From assembly GCA_021801345.1 (NCBI GenBank), contig JAJYYA010000067.1, positions 1 through 64,000 of the forward strand: DNA of 64,000 bases. Reading direction: 5' to 3'. Positions within the stretch are counted from its first letter, which is position 1. Every line of letters starts with the position of its first letter. Position numbers and translations under genes: made by a program. The stretch is from Nitrospirota bacterium. GTDB lineage: Bacteria > Nitrospirota > Leptospirillia > Leptospirillales > Leptospirillaceae. Shown here piece after piece: positions 13,235 to 38,478 of this stretch. The notes below the pieces were generated by a model. It did no database searches. It was not told where the DNA came from and worked only from the letters and a program-made list of their open reading frames with translations.

Positions 13235-14650
13235 ATGGCGAAAGACCGCAACAGAACACCTAAAATAAAGGGAACCCCCCGGTTCAGTCTTGTCACCGTT
13301 TTTCTCTCGGGACTTCTCTCCCTCGGAATCGCCCCCAAAGGGGCAGACGCCCATCCCCATCAGGGGAAGGGCGCCCCCCTCCCCTCATCCCCCCAGACGA
13401 ATCACCAAAATGCTCCGACCTCTTCCCAAACCTCTCATGAACACACAAATACCCATGTCGCTTCCAAGACCGGAAACGGATCGTCGAACTCCCAAAGCAG
13501 CTCTTCTGAAACCCCTCTCTGGGCCACATATACAGGCTCGCAGGAATCCTCCCGATCGCACCAGAACTCTGAATCACAGGGAAAACCAAAATCGAGCACC
13601 AGCGACAATAACGCCCAGGAGGGAGGATCTTCCACCCGGGGCTCCTCCTTTGACTCTTCAAAAAACACGGCAGGAGATCACACGAACTCCCAGTCCAAAA
13701 GCTCTCAGAGCGGAAAATCGACCGGGCAGACAACTGCCCACACCCAGAATGAGGGCAGCGACTCCGGATCCGGGCAGAGCTCCACGGGATCCGATCTTAC
13801 TCATCCACCACACCCGAGTCTCTCCCGCACCACCCCTTTAGCGGACACCGATCCGTCGAACCCCGACGGCACGCACGCCACCGCTCCGAATTCCGGGAGC
13901 GACACATCCCTCTCCGTCACTCACGCATCGGACAACAACACGAATCCCCACGCCGACTTCAATCGCGAACAGCAGACGACGCCGCCCAATCCGACACCCC
14001 TTCCGGTCACATCCACCACATCCCCCGCCCAGACAGATGGGGCAGGAGAAACCCCCTCCTCAGGGTCGACAAGCTCGCCCGATTCCTCTTCCTCAACGAT
14101 CTCGGTGACCGAACCTTCCCAGGGGGGAACTCAGACATCCTCCACCACATCGTCTTCCACGCCCCTTTCCTCGACAGAAACAACATCCTCGACGACGGAG
14201 ACCACGCCATCGGAAGGGGGCGCCGGACCTTCCTCGACACCGACGACAACGCAAGTCACATCCTCTCAGCCCACAACGATCACCACCCCCTCGGAAAGCG
14301 GTTCGGGAACACAGACGATTACCACATTTACCCCCTCGACCTCGTCAAACACCTTGAGCAGCCCCTTTCAGGGAACAACTCCCCCGACCATCGATATTAT
14401 CGTCGCGAACTCTCCGGCCACAGGCTCCGATGACGGCACCGGACCCAGTACGGGCGCTCCGGCTCCAGCCCCCCCCTCCTCCTTCTCCTTTGATGCTCCT
14501 GCCACTGGCACCCAAAGCGCCTCCTCGGGCTCTTCAAACGATACCGCTTCGACGATCTCCGACTCCGGCACATCCTCTGTCACCGTTCTCATTCCCGGGA
14601 TTGCCGATCAGGGGGTCGACATTCTGGAGGCAAAGGATTCGCGCAATTGA
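13235..14650 (+). CDS. Secreted Ser/Thr-rich low-complexity protein
   Basis: This 471-aa product has a signal peptide (basic start, then RFSLVTVFLSGLLSLGIAP) with likely cleavage after GADA. The rest is almost entirely Ser, Thr, Pro, Gly, Asn and Gln, with no cysteine after the signal peptide and hardly any hydrophobic cluster until the last 20 residues. Composition shifts along the chain: His/Asn/Ser-rich first, then runs of Ser/Thr with Glu, then a Pro/Ala/Ser section. Nothing resembles the FhaB-type TPS domain. GAGGA stands nine bases before the ATG at 13235; an ATG at 13226 is too close to that site. Disordered mucin-like surface or matrix proteins have this look. Export through the adjacent TpsB-like barrel is inference. 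Confidence 0.7.
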   Translation: MAKDRNRTPKIKGTPRFSLVTVFLSGLLSLGIAPKGADAHPHQGKGAPLPSSPQTNHQNAPTSSQTSHEHTNTHVASKTGNGSSNSQSSSSETPLWATYTGSQESSRSHQNSESQGKPKSSTSDNNAQEGGSSTRGSSFDSSKNTAGDHTNSQSKSSQSGKSTGQTTAHTQNEGSDSGSGQSSTGSDLTHPPHPSLSRTTPLADTDPSNPDGTHATAPNSGSDTSLSVTHASDNNTNPHADFNREQQTTPPNPTPLPVTSTTSPAQTDGAGETPSSGSTSSPDSSSSTISVTEPSQGGTQTSSTTSSSTPLSSTETTSSTTETTPSEGGAGPSSTPTTTQVTSSQPTTITTPSESGSGTQTITTFTPSTSSNTLSSPFQGTTPPTIDIIVANSPATGSDDGTGPSTGAPAPAPPSSFSFDAPATGTQSASSGSSNDTASTISDSGTSSVTVLIPGIADQGVDILEAKDSRN

Positions 14651-14980: not shown

Positions 14981-16039
14981 TTATTCGGCGTTGAGGGAGG
15001 CCATGTCGATGGAGAAGCGATACTTCACATCAGACGTCACCAGTCTCTCGTAAGCTTTGTTGATTTCCTGGATCGGGATGACCTCCACGTCGGCGGTTAT
15101 AGCGTGCGCTCCGCAGAAGTCGAGCATCTCCTGAGTCTCCTTGAGTCCCCCAATGATCGATCCCGAGAGACTGCGGCGTCCGAACAGAAGGGAGAAGGCA
15201 AAAACGGGGAGCGGCTTCTCCGGAGCCCCGACGAGTGTGATATTTCCGTCTCGTCCGAGCATATGGAGATAGGCGTTGATGTCGTGATCGGCAGAGATGG
15301 TGTCTAAAATAAAGTTGAAACTCCCCGCATGTTTTTGCATCTCTTCGGGGCTTGTGGACAGAATGACGTCATGAGCCCCGAGGCGGAGCGCATCCTCTTT
15401 TTTTCGGGGAGAGGTGGTAAAGACCACGACATGTGCTCCAAATGCTCGGGCAAACTTGACTCCCATGTGCCCCAAACCTCCGAGTCCGACCACTCCCACT
15501 TTTTTTCCTTGGATATTTCCCCAGCGACGCATAGGTGAATACGTCGTGATTCCTGCGCAGAGCAAGGGGGCGACTCCAGCAAGGTTTAGATTGGACGGAA
15601 CGCGAAGGACAAAGTGCTCGTCAACGACAATGCTCTCCGAGTATCCGCCATAGGTCACTCCGCCTAAATGTTTATCCGGAGAGTTATAGGTAAAAACCCC
15701 GTTTGGACAGAGCTGTTCCAGGTGATCTCGGCAGTTGGGACAACTCATGTCCGAGTCCACAAGACATCCCACACCCACCAGATCGCCCTGCTTGAAGGTC
15801 GTTACCGCAGACCCTACTTTTGTCACCTTTCCGACAATCTCATGACCGGGAACGACGGGGTACACCGTTGGCATGACGCTGTTCCACTCGTCCCGCACTG
15901 TGTGAAGATCGGAGTGACAGACCCCACAGTAGAGAATCTCGATCTGCACGTCACGGTCCGTGAGATCCCTTCGGGGGATTGTCTTGAAGGCCAGAGGAGA
16001 GGCGGGGGAAACGGCAGAATAGGACTTGGCATTGTACAT
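14981..16039 (-). CDS. Zinc-dependent NAD(P) alcohol dehydrogenase, YahK/cinnamyl-alcohol type
   Basis: This 352-aa medium-chain dehydrogenase would reduce aldehydes or oxidise alcohols with NADP(H). It shows the catalytic-zinc ligands in YCGVCHSDLHT and PGHEIVG, the structural-zinc cysteines in CPNCRDHLEQLC, CAGITTYSPMRRW, and the Rossmann loop VVGLGGLGHMGVKFA. The ATG at 16039 lies seven bases after AGGAG; an ATG at 16045 is too close to that site. It is 29 bp downstream of the aldo-keto reductase gene and reads the same way, so the two are probably one operon. The adjacent divergent AraC gene suggests control by a reactive carbonyl compound. Confidence 0.93.
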   Translation of the reverse strand: MYNAKSYSAVSPASPLAFKTIPRRDLTDRDVQIEILYCGVCHSDLHTVRDEWNSVMPTVYPVVPGHEIVGKVTKVGSAVTTFKQGDLVGVGCLVDSDMSCPNCRDHLEQLCPNGVFTYNSPDKHLGGVTYGGYSESIVVDEHFVLRVPSNLNLAGVAPLLCAGITTYSPMRRWGNIQGKKVGVVGLGGLGHMGVKFARAFGAHVVVFTTSPRKKEDALRLGAHDVILSTSPEEMQKHAGSFNFILDTISADHDINAYLHMLGRDGNITLVGAPEKPLPVFAFSLLFGRRSLSGSIIGGLKETQEMLDFCGAHAITADVEVIPIQEINKAYERLVTSDVKYRFSIDMASLNAE

Positions 16040-16068
16040 GGTCATGCTCCTTTTTCGTTAAAGTCACA

Positions 16069-17409
<1,341 letters not shown>

Positions 17410-34028: not shown

Positions 34029-34423
34029 TCGGCGCTCGACAGACGCTTCGGGCAAAGGGGAGACGTCCGACCTTCCGGGCGAAAGGAAGCCAAGAGGCAA
34101 AGGGCAAGCGAAGTGACAGCGAAGGCGTGGACGCCCGACAAGACTCACGTCGAAACCGAACCACGACGTCCTACAAAAACGCCGGAAGGGATTGACTGGC
34201 TCGGCAAAATGGTTGACGCACCTCCCTCCCCGGAAACTTCGCGTCCGGTCGAATTCCGCTTCGGTCAGAATCAGCAATGCCTTGCCCTCGCCCGATGCCT
34301 TCTATCTATGGCCGTCAACCACCCCGCCGATCCTGATCTCCCATCGAGGCGATGCGCATTCTTTGCAAAACAAAAAATGCCTGCCATAAAGATCTAGACA
34401 ATCTAGACAGAGGAGGTTCACAC
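34029..34423 (+). promoter_or_regulatory. Intergenic region with toxin-antitoxin promoter
   Basis: No gene was recognised in the first 330 bp. Near the right end TTGCAA (34363-34368) and CATAAA (34385-34390) are 16 bp apart. Just after them TCTAGA occurs twice (34393-34398 and 34402-34407), nine bases apart. The pair overlaps the expected transcription start and is a plausible operator for the antitoxin, followed by AGGAGG. Confidence 0.5.
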
Positions 34424-34678
34424 GTGTCGACACAGTGGCCGTTGCAGGAAGCGAAAAATCGTTTGAGCGACGTTGTCAAACAGGCTTTGCAGCAGGGTCC
34501 GCAGGTGATCACTTTGCGGGGGGAACCTGTCGTGGTCGTCCTGTCGGTCCGGGAATTTCGCACACTGACCGAGCCCAGGGAGTCCCTGTCCACGTTTTTC
34601 CGGTCCGGTCCCCTGCATGGAGTGGATCTTGAAATCGAGCGGAATCGGGAGGATTTTGGCCGGGAGATCGTCCTGTGA
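34424..34678 (+). CDS. Phd/YefM-type antitoxin
   Basis: The 84-aa product carries the type II antitoxin DNA-binding half (WPLQEAKNRLSDVVKQAL, then GPQVITLRGEPVVVVLSV) and a C-terminal tail (about residues 50-84) that would wrap the toxin. It starts with GTG behind AGGAGG, and overlaps the toxin gene by four bases (GTGA). It should repress its own promoter, which carries a TCTAGA pair. Confidence 0.9.
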   Translation: MSTQWPLQEAKNRLSDVVKQALQQGPQVITLRGEPVVVVLSVREFRTLTEPRESLSTFFRSGPLHGVDLEIERNREDFGREIVL

Positions 34679-35091
34679 GTTATCTCGTGGATACTTGCGT
34701 GCTTTTCCAACTGCTTCGAAAGAATCCGGAACCGAAAGTGGTCCGCTGGATGGACGAACGCGATCCGATGACGCCTCTCAGCGTGCTGACGTTGGGCGAA
34801 CTGCAGAAAGGGGTGTCGAAACTGCCGGAGGACGAACGCAAAGAGCAGATCCAGGCATGGATCGACCGGAACCTTCTCGAACGAATTGAAGGTCGCATTC
34901 TCCCTGTGGATGCCGAAGTGGCAAGCACATGGGACCGGATAACCGGGGAAGCCGAAAGCCGGGGGAGAAAGCTGCCTGTCATCGACAGCCTGATTGCGGC
35001 GACGGCCGTTTCCCGCAACCTGATCGTAGTGACGCGAAATACACACGATCTTAGGGGATGCGGGGCCCAGGTTTTCGATCCGTGGGAATAA
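34675..35091 (+). CDS. PIN-domain ribonuclease toxin (VapC family)
   Basis: The 138-aa toxin has the four acidic PIN residues: Asp in YLVDTCVLFQLL, Glu in LTLGELQKGV, and Asps in PVIDSLIAATA and TRNTHDL. It should cleave RNA when free of the antitoxin. Similar proteins pair with Phd-type antitoxins as here (FitB-like). It starts with GTG overlapping the antitoxin stop. The following 282 bp hold no recognised gene. Confidence 0.92.
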   Translation: MSYLVDTCVLFQLLRKNPEPKVVRWMDERDPMTPLSVLTLGELQKGVSKLPEDERKEQIQAWIDRNLLERIEGRILPVDAEVASTWDRITGEAESRGRKLPVIDSLIAATAVSRNLIVVTRNTHDLRGCGAQVFDPWE

Positions 35092-35373: not shown

Positions 35374-36252
35374 CTAGAACTGCTTCTTGAGCCTGTCGAA
35401 CCAGCCGGACTTGTTGGTGGACAGGACCCGGGGCTTGCCGCAGGTCTCGGGAGGAGGCCAGTTGACCAGCATCGACCCCATCTGGGAAGCGGTGATGTCG
35501 GCCCCGGACTTCTTGAAATACTCCTCCCAGAAAGAGGTCATCTTCCGGGTCCGCTCGATCGAGGGAGAGCGGGTCCCGATGACGTAGACGCAGACGTTCT
35601 TGAGGTCGGGGAAGCCGTAGGCCTTCTCGACGCGAGAGAGATCCTTCCGGTCGAAGGTCATGGAGCGGTAACGGAACCGTCCCCGGTCCTCCTGCATGTC
35701 GGAGAGAAAGACGGCCACCGGTCGCATCTTGTCGGCAGAGAAGAGCTGCGAAGCCATGCGGGCGGCACCGAAGAGATCGGTATATTTTGACTTTCCTGGC
35801 TTGGCAAGTTTTTTCCTAAGCGTCGTCAGAAGAGTCTGACGAACGGCCTCGTCTTTGGCATCGAGCTCCTTGACCTTGGCCTTGTAGTCGAGTTCGTTGT
35901 CGGAGAGGCTGTCGAAGGGGGGGCGGGGCGCGAGCGTCCCCTCGGCCATGAACTCCGAAACCAGAGAGTTGTCGTCGGTGATGGGAACCACTCGGAGCCT
36001 GTCTCCCTGCCGGAGACCCGGCACGATCCGGTCGAGAAGGGAGCGGCGGTACACATCAAACTGCCGGTCGGTGCTCCCGGTCTCGTCGACAAAGACAAGA
36101 ATGTCAAGTCCGGGAGCGGGTTCCTCTCCCCACGCCTCCCCCGAACCGGCTCCCCCTCCGAAAAGGGACGCTCCCGGAAGGGCGGGGGCGGCCAGTCCCA
36201 CGAGGACTCCCAGACCCAGACCCAGAAAAACTCTCCCTCCCCATGACTTCAT
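35374..36252 (-). CDS. Secreted von Willebrand factor A (VWA) domain protein
   Basis: This 292-aa product has a signal peptide (VFLGLGLGVLVGLAAPALPG) and a VWA domain starting with ILVFVDETGSTD, where DETGS fits the MIDAS DxSxS/DxTxS pattern. FLSDMQEDRG and VCVYVIGTRSP form later core strands. Between them is a charged helical insert of about 80 residues (around LDYKAKVKELDAKDEAVRQT). The ATG at 36252 is chosen because the signal peptide starts there; its ribosome-binding site is weak. It is the last gene of the RHH-coiled-coil-membrane-VWA operon. VWA domains bind protein partners through a metal ion; the partner is unknown. Confidence 0.8.
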   Translation of the reverse strand: MKSWGGRVFLGLGLGVLVGLAAPALPGASLFGGGAGSGEAWGEEPAPGLDILVFVDETGSTDRQFDVYRRSLLDRIVPGLRQGDRLRVVPITDDNSLVSEFMAEGTLAPRPPFDSLSDNELDYKAKVKELDAKDEAVRQTLLTTLRKKLAKPGKSKYTDLFGAARMASQLFSADKMRPVAVFLSDMQEDRGRFRYRSMTFDRKDLSRVEKAYGFPDLKNVCVYVIGTRSPSIERTRKMTSFWEEYFKKSGADITASQMGSMLVNWPPPETCGKPRVLSTNKSGWFDRLKKQF

Positions 36253-36387
36253 CTTTCTGTGCGGGATCCCCGGAGTCGTTCCCGGAGCGGATAGCGCCTC
36301 TCCCGCCTCTCCTTTCTCTGCTATCGGTTGTCGATCGTGCCTCCCCCGCACTCAGAACCCGGGGCGGGGAAACGGTTCCTGAAGATG

Positions 36388-36409
36388 GGCCGGGAGAGAT
36401 CTCCCGGCC
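36388..36409. repeat. 10-bp-arm palindrome between membrane and VWA genes
   Basis: GGCCGGGAGA and TCTCCCGGCC are separated by two bases, 12 bp after the stop of the membrane-protein gene. There is no T-run, so it is more likely an mRNA stem-loop that tunes expression of the downstream VWA gene than a terminator. Confidence 0.55.
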
Positions 36410-36420
36410 TGATATCGCGG

Positions 36421-37518
36421 CTAGCTTCGCCCTGTAGAAGAATAGGTGATCCGCCCGCGAGACTCAAGCTTGTCCTTTTCAGAGCCCTCCCCGGGAACAT
36501 GTCCGGTGACGGACTCTGCCGCGTCGGGAAGCCTGAAGTCCGGCCACCAGCGCTTGAGAGTCGGAGACTCGGGATTCCTTGAAAAGGAGGCCGGAGCCAC
36601 GGTCCCGCCCCGCGAAGCCATGTTGGCCTGCCGGTAGAGGGCAATCTTGGAGGTGACGTCGGAGATGACCCGCTCCGCCTCCCCGCGCCCGGCACGGATG
36701 ACGGCGTTCGTCTTGGAGATGGAGACCGACAGTCGCTCCCTGAGCTTGCTGCGCTTCTTGTCGAGCCGCACCGTCGCCACATGAAGGGCGTCGAGCTCCG
36801 AGTCCTGGTCGTGGGCAAAGAAGCTGACCATGTAGGCGCCCATGAAGATCAGGAGGTTGATGGCGAACATGGCATAGACCATGTTGCCGGAGCCGGAACC
36901 CAGCTTGTGCTCGGCATGGAGGGTCACATACATGTTGCGGATAAAGGAAAGAGCCGTCAGGGCGCCGAGCACCGTCGTCGGAGCCAGGGCGATCATGATC
37001 GCGGTGGCGATCTTGGGAGGCACGAGGGTCCGGATCTGGAGCCCCAGGAAGACGCCGATGATCGGAAGCGTCAGGGAGAGCGTCATGCTCATCACATAGG
37101 TCATGAGCTCGGGCTCGCCGAACATCCGGAAGACCACCACGTTCAGGGGGAACTCGCCGATGGCAAGGAGAAGAACAATCATCCAGTGGACCGTATAGGG
37201 AACCGGGATGACCACGTCCCGACCCACGGCATCCTTCCGGTTCCGGTATCGGACGAGGACGTCCTTGAGCCGGTACTGGTTGGACTCGTAGGCGTTGGCC
37301 AGATTGCTGGTCTTTCCCTCGAGAGTCGAAAGCTCTGCGGCCGTCTGTGCATAGATCTCGCTGATCTTGGACTCGCCTGCGGCAATGATCGACCTCTCGA
37401 AGGGGCCGGCCTCGTAACTGCTTCCGGAGGGAAGTCCTGCCAGCCCGTCTTCATGGCCGGCCTTCCGGATGACTTCATCGTCGGGAAAATTCGCCCGCGA
37501 CTGGACTTTGTGCTTCAT
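36421..37518 (-). CDS. Multi-pass membrane protein of unknown function
   Basis: The 365-aa product has a soluble N-terminal helical region (about residues 40-105, probably coiled coil). A block of four or five transmembrane helices follows, including YTVHWMIVLLLAIGEFPLNV, a second and third around MSMTLSLTLPIIGVFLGL and ATAIMIALAPTTVLGAL, and NLLIFMGAYMVSFFA. A long basic/charged cytoplasmic tail ends at residue 365. The topology, with EFPLN and FGEPELM between helices, resembles membrane proteins often carried by mobile elements, but I cannot name the family. AGGAG lies eight bases before the ATG. It follows the coiled-coil gene by 59 bp. Confidence 0.75.
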   Translation of the reverse strand: MKHKVQSRANFPDDEVIRKAGHEDGLAGLPSGSSYEAGPFERSIIAAGESKISEIYAQTAAELSTLEGKTSNLANAYESNQYRLKDVLVRYRNRKDAVGRDVVIPVPYTVHWMIVLLLAIGEFPLNVVVFRMFGEPELMTYVMSMTLSLTLPIIGVFLGLQIRTLVPPKIATAIMIALAPTTVLGALTALSFIRNMYVTLHAEHKLGSGSGNMVYAMFAINLLIFMGAYMVSFFAHDQDSELDALHVATVRLDKKRSKLRERLSVSISKTNAVIRAGRGEAERVISDVTSKIALYRQANMASRGGTVAPASFSRNPESPTLKRWWPDFRLPDAAESVTGHVPGEGSEKDKLESRGRITYSSTGRS

Positions 37519-37577
37519 CTCGTTTCTCCTCGATATCGGGAAGACCTGTTCTTCCCGTTTTAGACGCGTCCCGTTCC

Positions 37578-37919
37578 CTAGTTGATGACGCCGCTGCCTT
37601 CAACGGAGTTCCGGCGGTGATGGCTCACAATGGTATTGAGTTCGTCGACCATGAACTGGAGCTTGGTATGGAGGTCGGCCACAGAGTTCACCCACTGGGA
37701 TTCGCGGGCATGGAAGTTCTGGTAGTCTTCCTTGAACTGGGCGATAAAGCGGTTCATGCGCTCGGACTCCGCCCTCAGGGCATCGCGGTCGGTCAGGAGA
37801 ATGTCCCACTGCTTCTTCGTCTCGGAAAGGCGGTCCATCACCACCGACGATTTTTCGAGAAGATCGTTGTATTCCTTAACCGCGTTGATAATCTTGTTAA
37901 TGTCTTTGTCACCCAGCAT
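37578..37919 (-). CDS. Coiled-coil protein of unknown function
   Basis: This 113-aa hydrophilic protein is predicted helical from heptad patterns over most of its length (about residues 8-95: INAVKEYNDLLEKSSVVMD, then RDALRAESERMNRFIAQF). It has no cysteine or membrane segment. GGGGA lies seven bases before the ATG at 37919. Position between the RHH and membrane genes suggests that it couples them or binds the helical N terminus of the membrane protein. Confidence 0.7.
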   Translation of the reverse strand: MLGDKDINKIINAVKEYNDLLEKSSVVMDRLSETKKQWDILLTDRDALRAESERMNRFIAQFKEDYQNFHARESQWVNSVADLHTKLQFMVDELNTIVSHHRRNSVEGSGVIN

Positions 37920-37989
37920 CGTTCGTCCCCTTTTTACGTTAGGTTCCCTGCGTTTTGTGTTTTCCCGGCCCCCGGCCGGGATCTCCGCT

Positions 37990-38175
37990 TCAGCGCGTCC
38001 TGGGGGAGGTGCGGCCCTCCCCTTCCGAAGGCCGGGTGCCTTCCGTCCGGCCCTTGCCGAAGAACCCCTCAAGCACGACGAGGATCTCCGCGTGGATCGA
38101 ACGGTGCTCCCGGGTGGCCTGCTCCTTGATGATTTGGTATAGCGCTTCATTCATGCGCAGCGTCATCCGTTTCAT
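37990..38175 (-). CDS. Arc/MetJ-type ribbon-helix-helix DNA-binding protein
   Basis: The 61-aa product has the RHH pattern: a basic beta strand KRMTLRMNEALYQ, helix A IIKEQATREHRS, and helix B IHAEILVVLEGFF, then a polar tail. It probably represses its own promoter, which overlaps the start codon. No Shine-Dalgarno is visible, and the calculated transcription start falls on or next to the ATG, so the message may be leaderless. Later ATGs at 38166 and 38154 are alternatives. First gene of the four-gene operon. Confidence 0.75.
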   Translation of the reverse strand: MKRMTLRMNEALYQIIKEQATREHRSIHAEILVVLEGFFGKGRTEGTRPSEGEGRTSPRTR

Positions 38176-38478
38176 GATGTCATTTTAACACTATTTTGGT
38201 GCATGTCAAACATATTTATAAGTATTTATTTTAAAACAATAAAATAACATTTTAAAAATTTTAATTATTATTTTTAAAGAAGAAAAAACACATTTTTTTG
38301 AAATCAGCAGGCCAGATCTGGCGACCCCGTCCTCGACCATTATAAAAAAGGACGGAAAAGGATTGTCGTGACGAACGTCACCGGAGCTCCGTCCAAAAAC
38401 GTCCTGCGACGCGAGCCTACCGGGATGAGCGCACGAGGGGTCCCCGATAGCCTATTCGAGGACGCGGCCGAAACGGAT
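38176..38478. other. AT-rich divergent/control region
   Basis: The segment 38176-38310 is the most AT-rich in the right half of the window. It carries the RHH promoter, possible UP-element A/T tracts, and an ATGTCA motif repeated at 38178 and 38203. The rest, up to the recD stop, shows no gene. Confidence 0.5.
38182..38209 (-). promoter_or_regulatory. Sigma70-type promoter of the RHH operon
   Basis: TTGACA (38209-38204) and TAAAAT (38187-38182) are 16 bp apart on the minus strand. Transcription would begin at about 38175, i.e. at the A of the first ATG, implying a leaderless transcript or a start slightly downstream. TGTCATTTTAACA (38180-38192) covers the -10 and could be an operator. Confidence 0.7.

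Follow-up and report, generated by a model that had tools for sequence, protein, structure and literature searches.

A candidate membrane-acting defence or stress device in Leptospirillum-like bacteria: a multipass membrane protein paired with an exported VWA protein

What would hold a small DNA-binding protein, a coiled coil, a multipass membrane protein and an exported VWA protein together in a single operon? The question is raised by the window analysed here, that is, the whole stretch of 64,000 nucleotides from a Nitrospirota genome of 2.6 Mb (GCA_021801345.1, contig JAJYYA010000067.1). Four co-directional genes on its minus strand encode, in order, a probable RHH (Arc/MetJ-type) DNA-binding protein of 61 amino acids (37990..38175), a small coiled-coil protein, CC, of 113 (37578..37919), a protein with four transmembrane helices, TM, of 365 that belongs to no known family (36421..37518), and an exported VWA protein of 292 with a complete MIDAS, identified by alignment, profile and predicted structure (35374..36252). 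The RHH assignment draws on a family alignment in which the protein is conserved, on a match to a PHROG Arc-like repressor (E 4e-5), and on a Pfam Arc match below the cut-off (E 0.002). The initial annotation described these genes as one operon behind a strong promoter, and their positions, their strand and a near-consensus promoter all bear this out.

One promoter drives all four genes. It occupies 38209-38182 (TTGACA-16-TAAAAT, 11/12, with an extended -10) within a 32-bp promoter/operator element on the minus strand, TTGACATGCACCAAAATAGTGTTAAAATGACA (38178..38209), in a region where promoter-like sites number 6 against 0.7 expected from shuffles. Given that the -10 hexamer ends only 6 bp upstream of the RHH ATG, the operon mRNA is probably nearly leaderless; no RNA element was found in Rfam. 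Across ten genomes of the genus the promoter core hardly varies, and the AT-rich DNA upstream of it is not conserved. The 32-base pattern occurs exactly once per genome in 10/10 of these genomes, always at this operon, and its reversed control matches nothing in them. This single occurrence suggests autoregulation, with the RHH protein as the probable autoregulator acting at a putative operator. A wider RHH regulon was also considered and was rejected, as no second operator copy was found in any genus genome.

The surroundings of the operon are less telling. It is flanked by recBCD on one side and by a phosphoglucomutase-like gene on the other, and in the window genome a PIN/Phd toxin-antitoxin pair (34352-35091) lies between the latter and the VWA gene. 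Both recBCD and the toxin-antitoxin pair had been pointed out as neighbours and thereby as possible clues. Both are indeed adjacent here. In relatives, however, the VWA gene abuts the phosphoglucomutase-like gene directly, and the recBCD adjacency, which holds within the genus, is lost outside it. The one association is thus confined to the window genome and the other to genus synteny; both are incidental, and neither the toxin-antitoxin genes as parts of the system nor a functional coupling to recBCD was retained.

The VWA protein carries a signal peptide, joined in most relatives outside the genus by a lipobox (read from the alignment). The DETGS first described as MIDAS-like proves to be a true MIDAS by conservation and predicted fold: D56, S60, T158 and D185 (window numbering) show little or no variation among 25 relatives, and nearly all members keep the DxTxS..T..D pattern whole. 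The profile of the VWA protein matches the VWA domain of collagen VI (E 2e-10), its predicted model (pLDDT 84.8) matches the VWA domains of integrin I, BatB and CLCA1 (Foldseek E 1e-5, prob 1.0), and CACHD1 and CLCA1 are among its fold or profile matches. Profile and predicted structure together confirm membership of the VWA superfamily, with a Rossmann-like VWA fold and a MIDAS.

The TM protein, by comparison, stands apart from known proteins. Sequence searches of Pfam, NCBIfam, PHROG, PADLOC and PDB gave no convincing match for it, and a Foldseek search with its fold returned nothing below E 0.08 and no PDB match. Membership of a well-known transporter family, named beforehand as a finding that would speak against the module, is not borne out either: the protein falls in no known transporter or channel family by Pfam, PDB or fold. 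Its AlphaFold2 model, of moderate confidence (pLDDT 76.6, pTM 0.52), has long helices at 39-98 and 240-303, with the four transmembrane helices lying between them (108 to 235). The helical N terminus noted at the outset is only half of the feature, as it pairs in the predicted structure with the second long helix at the C terminus. The charge pattern is N-in/C-in, and hydropathy together with a basic TM2-TM3 loop indicates that both long helices are probably cytoplasmic. Five residues, E122, N126, T140, G159 and R194, are kept in 28/28 relatives, and E122, N126, T140 and R194 lie within or beside the membrane.

Whether these genes belong together is answered by their distribution. A neighbourhood survey, set beforehand as the test of the proposed module, found that homologues of the four genes do co-occur: complete RHH-CC-TM-VWA loci (n=18) are present in Leptospirillum-like and Nitrospiria genomes, namely in 10 genomes of the genus, at 4 loci in three other genera of the family, and at 4 Nitrospiria loci (L092, L129, L130 and L131), with a CC-TM-VWA locus besides (L093). 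An order that recurs so widely is not due to chance, and the module is coherent; as the initial annotation supposed, no named system of this composition is present in the libraries searched. Several genus genomes also contain a second, eroded copy, lacking RHH (L028, L031) or VWA (L029) or reduced to RHH and TM (L030) or to TM alone (L032).

The four genes are nevertheless not an obligate unit, for RHH-CC occurs without TM-VWA and TM-VWA without RHH-CC. VWA adjoins the TM gene at 30/33 TM loci, and among 396 Nitrospirota genomes the VWA profile has 26 strong matches, and all but two of them have a TM gene for a neighbour; the two exceptions (G004, at a contig start, and G006) come from assemblies in which no TM gene was found. 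The groupings in the TM tree and in the VWA tree largely agree. On the evidence of gene content, TM-VWA is a near-obligate core pair. Three weaker VWA matches (E 1e-9 to 1e-12), from genomes that lack a TM gene, were assigned to other VWA proteins, and weak TM-profile matches (E 1e-8 to 1e-2), mostly short, partial or helical stretches and including a partial match at L098, were left out of the counts. The sensitive profile searches covered Nitrospirota, the wider contig scan used patterns from close relatives, and one partial, weak VWA match came from an Aeromonas record. Genes on contigs of metagenome-assembled genomes were called with a simple script, and the position of some start codons is uncertain.

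CC is a less faithful companion than either core protein is to the other, which makes the system modular, a TM-VWA core with an RHH-CC front end that appears from gene content to be detachable. The CC family has an existence of its own: genus genomes contain both CC genes that stand alone and RHH-CC pairs that lack TM and VWA. Such pairs lie at L142:3269-3832 and L144:7844-8423, and the window genome itself has a lone CC at L140:8001-8321 (G000:C71).

Unexpected evidence bearing on function comes from a distant branch. Profile search reached nine TM-VWA pairs without RHH or CC in Thermodesulfovibrionia, which from our own reading of the phylum we take to be the class of G275, and a bacterial-PH membrane protein often accompanies the pair. 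Type III CRISPR loci contain or adjoin five of the nine. At L094, TM-VWA-PH leads directly into Cas10d, Csx10 and Csx19-type genes; at L097, Cas10, Csx10 and Csm3-like genes come after TM-VWA; at L118, TM-VWA-PH precedes CorA, Cas10 and Csm4/Csm3-like genes; at L119, the genes upstream of TM-VWA-PH are CARF-HD and Csx1; and at L037, a Cas6-RT-Cas1 gene lies ~1 kb and a large CRISPR array ~4 kb from the pair. The genomes concerned have 0-3 cas10 genes each, and the chance of such linkage is about 1e-8 to 4e-7 if 1-2% of a genome is counted as near a type III locus. As read from the TM tree, the five loci form one branch (support 97/95), with the four non-CRISPR loci as its sister branch and all of the RHH-CC loci on the other side; in the VWA tree they are not one branch. 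The five may consequently share one recruitment, in which case the linkage partly reflects one event that has persisted through large divergence; what argues for function is that five families of genomes have retained it. Two peculiarities of these loci may be recorded. The array at L037 (genome G033) is broken twice by a near-identical stretch (14022-14321 and 15889-16188, spacing 919 bases) with a 117-aa open reading frame that resembles, by eye, the end of a RAMP (Cmr6-type) protein, and the CARF-HD/Csx1 type III signalling locus of L119 has for neighbours a pair of CYTH-domain proteins (L119:231-3321), of which one includes a RelA/SpoT region.

The option of a defence role, raised for the window operon from the start, thus gains a CRISPR-linked branch and loses local support. 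The window operon is neither within a type III CRISPR-Cas locus nor beside CRISPR or conserved defence genes, and Pfam and PADLOC revealed no second-messenger sensor domain (CARF, SAVED, REC, CorA or Csx23) in the window or CRISPR-linked members, where the only matches were sub-threshold or generic helical and membrane ones. As both locus linkage and sensor domain are missing, it is not classed as a type III CRISPR effector. The window genome does have its own type III-B locus on another contig (L146, G000:C47:72000-88145), with Cas10, Cmr3, Cmr4, Cmr6, a CARF-HEPN Csx1 and a diverged Cas1, physically unconnected to the operon; a PIN/Phd-like pair lies upstream of that locus as well.

In light of the architecture of the pair and its CRISPR-linked branch, we tentatively favour a membrane effector or sensor core that one lineage has coupled to type III CRISPR and that is here controlled by RHH-CC. 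We infer a two-protein inner-membrane device, in which the TM protein, its N and C termini inside, would form a complex with a periplasmic MIDAS-type VWA subunit that is exported and predicted to be lipid-anchored in most lineages. A cytoplasmic signal would act via the long helices of the TM protein, the VWA subunit would bind and gate its short periplasmic loops through the metal site, and the TM protein would alter ion permeability or envelope state and so restrain the infected or stressed cell. The core would have become an ancillary part of type III CRISPR loci in one lineage. In Leptospirillum-like and Nitrospiria genomes it would have a promoter of its own, which the RHH protein would repress in a feedback loop, and CC would serve as a cytoplasmic adaptor on the long helices. 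Since RHH-CC and CC also occur without TM-VWA, CC may not be such an adaptor at all. TM-VWA may, in short, be a new membrane-acting defence or stress device. That it is an undescribed two-protein membrane immunity core, an ancillary type III effector or a stand-alone RHH-autoregulated device that brings an extracytoplasmic VWA subunit into intracellular antiviral signalling, goes further and is rather doubtful.

The closest competitor, quite possible if somewhat less favoured, is a non-immune device of envelope homeostasis, in which the VWA protein would monitor the periplasm or cell wall, the TM protein would signal to or support the envelope, and the type III loci of one lineage would have recruited the pair or hitchhiked along with it. 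Within the window genus the operon is near-universal, mostly vertical, syntenic and under strong purifying selection. The strength of selection is very uneven, with dN/dS of 0.07-0.16 for TM, 0.15-0.23 for VWA and 0.19-0.54 for RHH; on CC it is extreme (about 0.005, range 0.004-0.017), the CC orthologues being 96-100% identical although dS is about 1. The low values for TM and CC suit homeostasis. The whole pattern is more like housekeeping than a fast-turnover defence gene and counts against the defence reading. Likewise, the sister branch of the CRISPR-linked loci (L038, L095, L096, L117) has mostly an XRE-type regulator and lipoprotein genes in place of CRISPR: an XRE-family HTH gene follows the pair in three loci, and a DUF2242 lipoprotein gene stands there instead at L095. 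(The VWA gene of L117 is frameshifted.) Plasmids, phages and viral contigs searched with several members gave no match, a result that suits a homeostatic role and on which a further candidate, mobile-element cargo, was rejected. Against envelope homeostasis, the system is very patchily distributed beyond the Leptospirillum family, where a few percent of genomes have it in either of two classes; it was not found in all three genomes of a sister genus; and TM-VWA is CRISPR-linked in five different families of genomes. Because vertical inheritance also suits homeostasis, the effector or sensor core is preferred with reserve, and an antiviral role is less certain for its Leptospirillum version.

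It is improbable that the CRISPR linkage is passive, with the pair no more than a resident of defence islands or mobile regions. One TM-VWA relative does lie beside IS66 transposase-like genes (by eye), and the L038 pair is ~5 kb from an Argonaute-associated SIR2 gene; at L094 and L118, however, TM-VWA-PH has the same order and is contiguous and co-directional with the cas genes, with overlaps or very short gaps. More improbable still is an ion-driven, stator-like machine of the MotA/ExbB/ZorA kind, Zorya-like, with CC as its tail and VWA as its periplasmic anchor. Four transmembrane helices, long cytoplasmic helices, a periplasmic partner and very weak TolQ fold matches (E about 1) are what recommend it, yet there is neither a sequence nor a confident fold match to MotA, ExbB or ZorA, the VWA partner lacks an OmpA-type peptidoglycan domain, ZorC and ZorD are absent, and a weak NCBIfam ZorA match falls only on CC, as for any coiled coil. 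Least credible is a toxin-antitoxin-like unit in which an RHH antitoxin neutralises a membrane toxin, for although the RHH gene leads the operon and has a unique operator, an arrangement shared with many type II modules, the tail of the RHH protein, the would-be toxin binder, is its least conserved part and RHH-toxin pairing is not obligate, RHH being missing or replaced in many loci and RHH-CC pairs existing without TM.

How, then, would the preferred effector or sensor core stand among known systems? Like Zorya ZorAB, TM-VWA combines a multi-TM protein bearing long cytoplasmic helices with a periplasmic partner; unlike Zorya, it has no homology to ZorA or ZorB and no ZorC/D, and the PADLOC and NCBIfam Zorya models match neither TM nor VWA, so that it does not qualify as Zorya. 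BatA/BatB of Bacteroides aerotolerance likewise bring a VWA fold to a bacterial membrane, BatB being among the best structural matches. Bat VWA proteins have their own transmembrane helices and are accompanied by MoxR ATPase and DUF58 genes, whereas no such genes were seen at the TM-VWA operon. Animal alpha2delta/CACHD1 and CLCA1 are extracytoplasmic MIDAS VWA proteins paired with membrane channels, and they offer an analogy only, as the TM protein has no shown channel homology. A further comparison is with the type III membrane effectors Cam1, Cam2, Cam3, Csx23 and CorA, which are, like the CRISPR-linked relatives, membrane proteins in type III loci, CorA once lying directly beside such a relative (L118). 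Known effectors of this kind work on the membrane from its cytoplasmic side and have a messenger sensor built in. The TM protein, by contrast, has no CARF, REC or CorA domain, comes with a second, exported VWA protein, and belongs to a pair most of whose members lie outside CRISPR loci. A VWA protein is mentioned in neither of two recent surveys, Hoikkala et al. 2024 (PMC11229360) and the 2025 CRISPR classification (PMC12669027). If our reading is true, the stand-alone Leptospirillum version would show how a core of this kind can pass from RNA-guided immunity to the control of a private regulator, or in the opposite direction, and an effector with a regular partner outside the inner membrane would represent a different design among type III membrane effectors, one that raises the question of how an exported subunit joins a response that starts in the cytoplasm.
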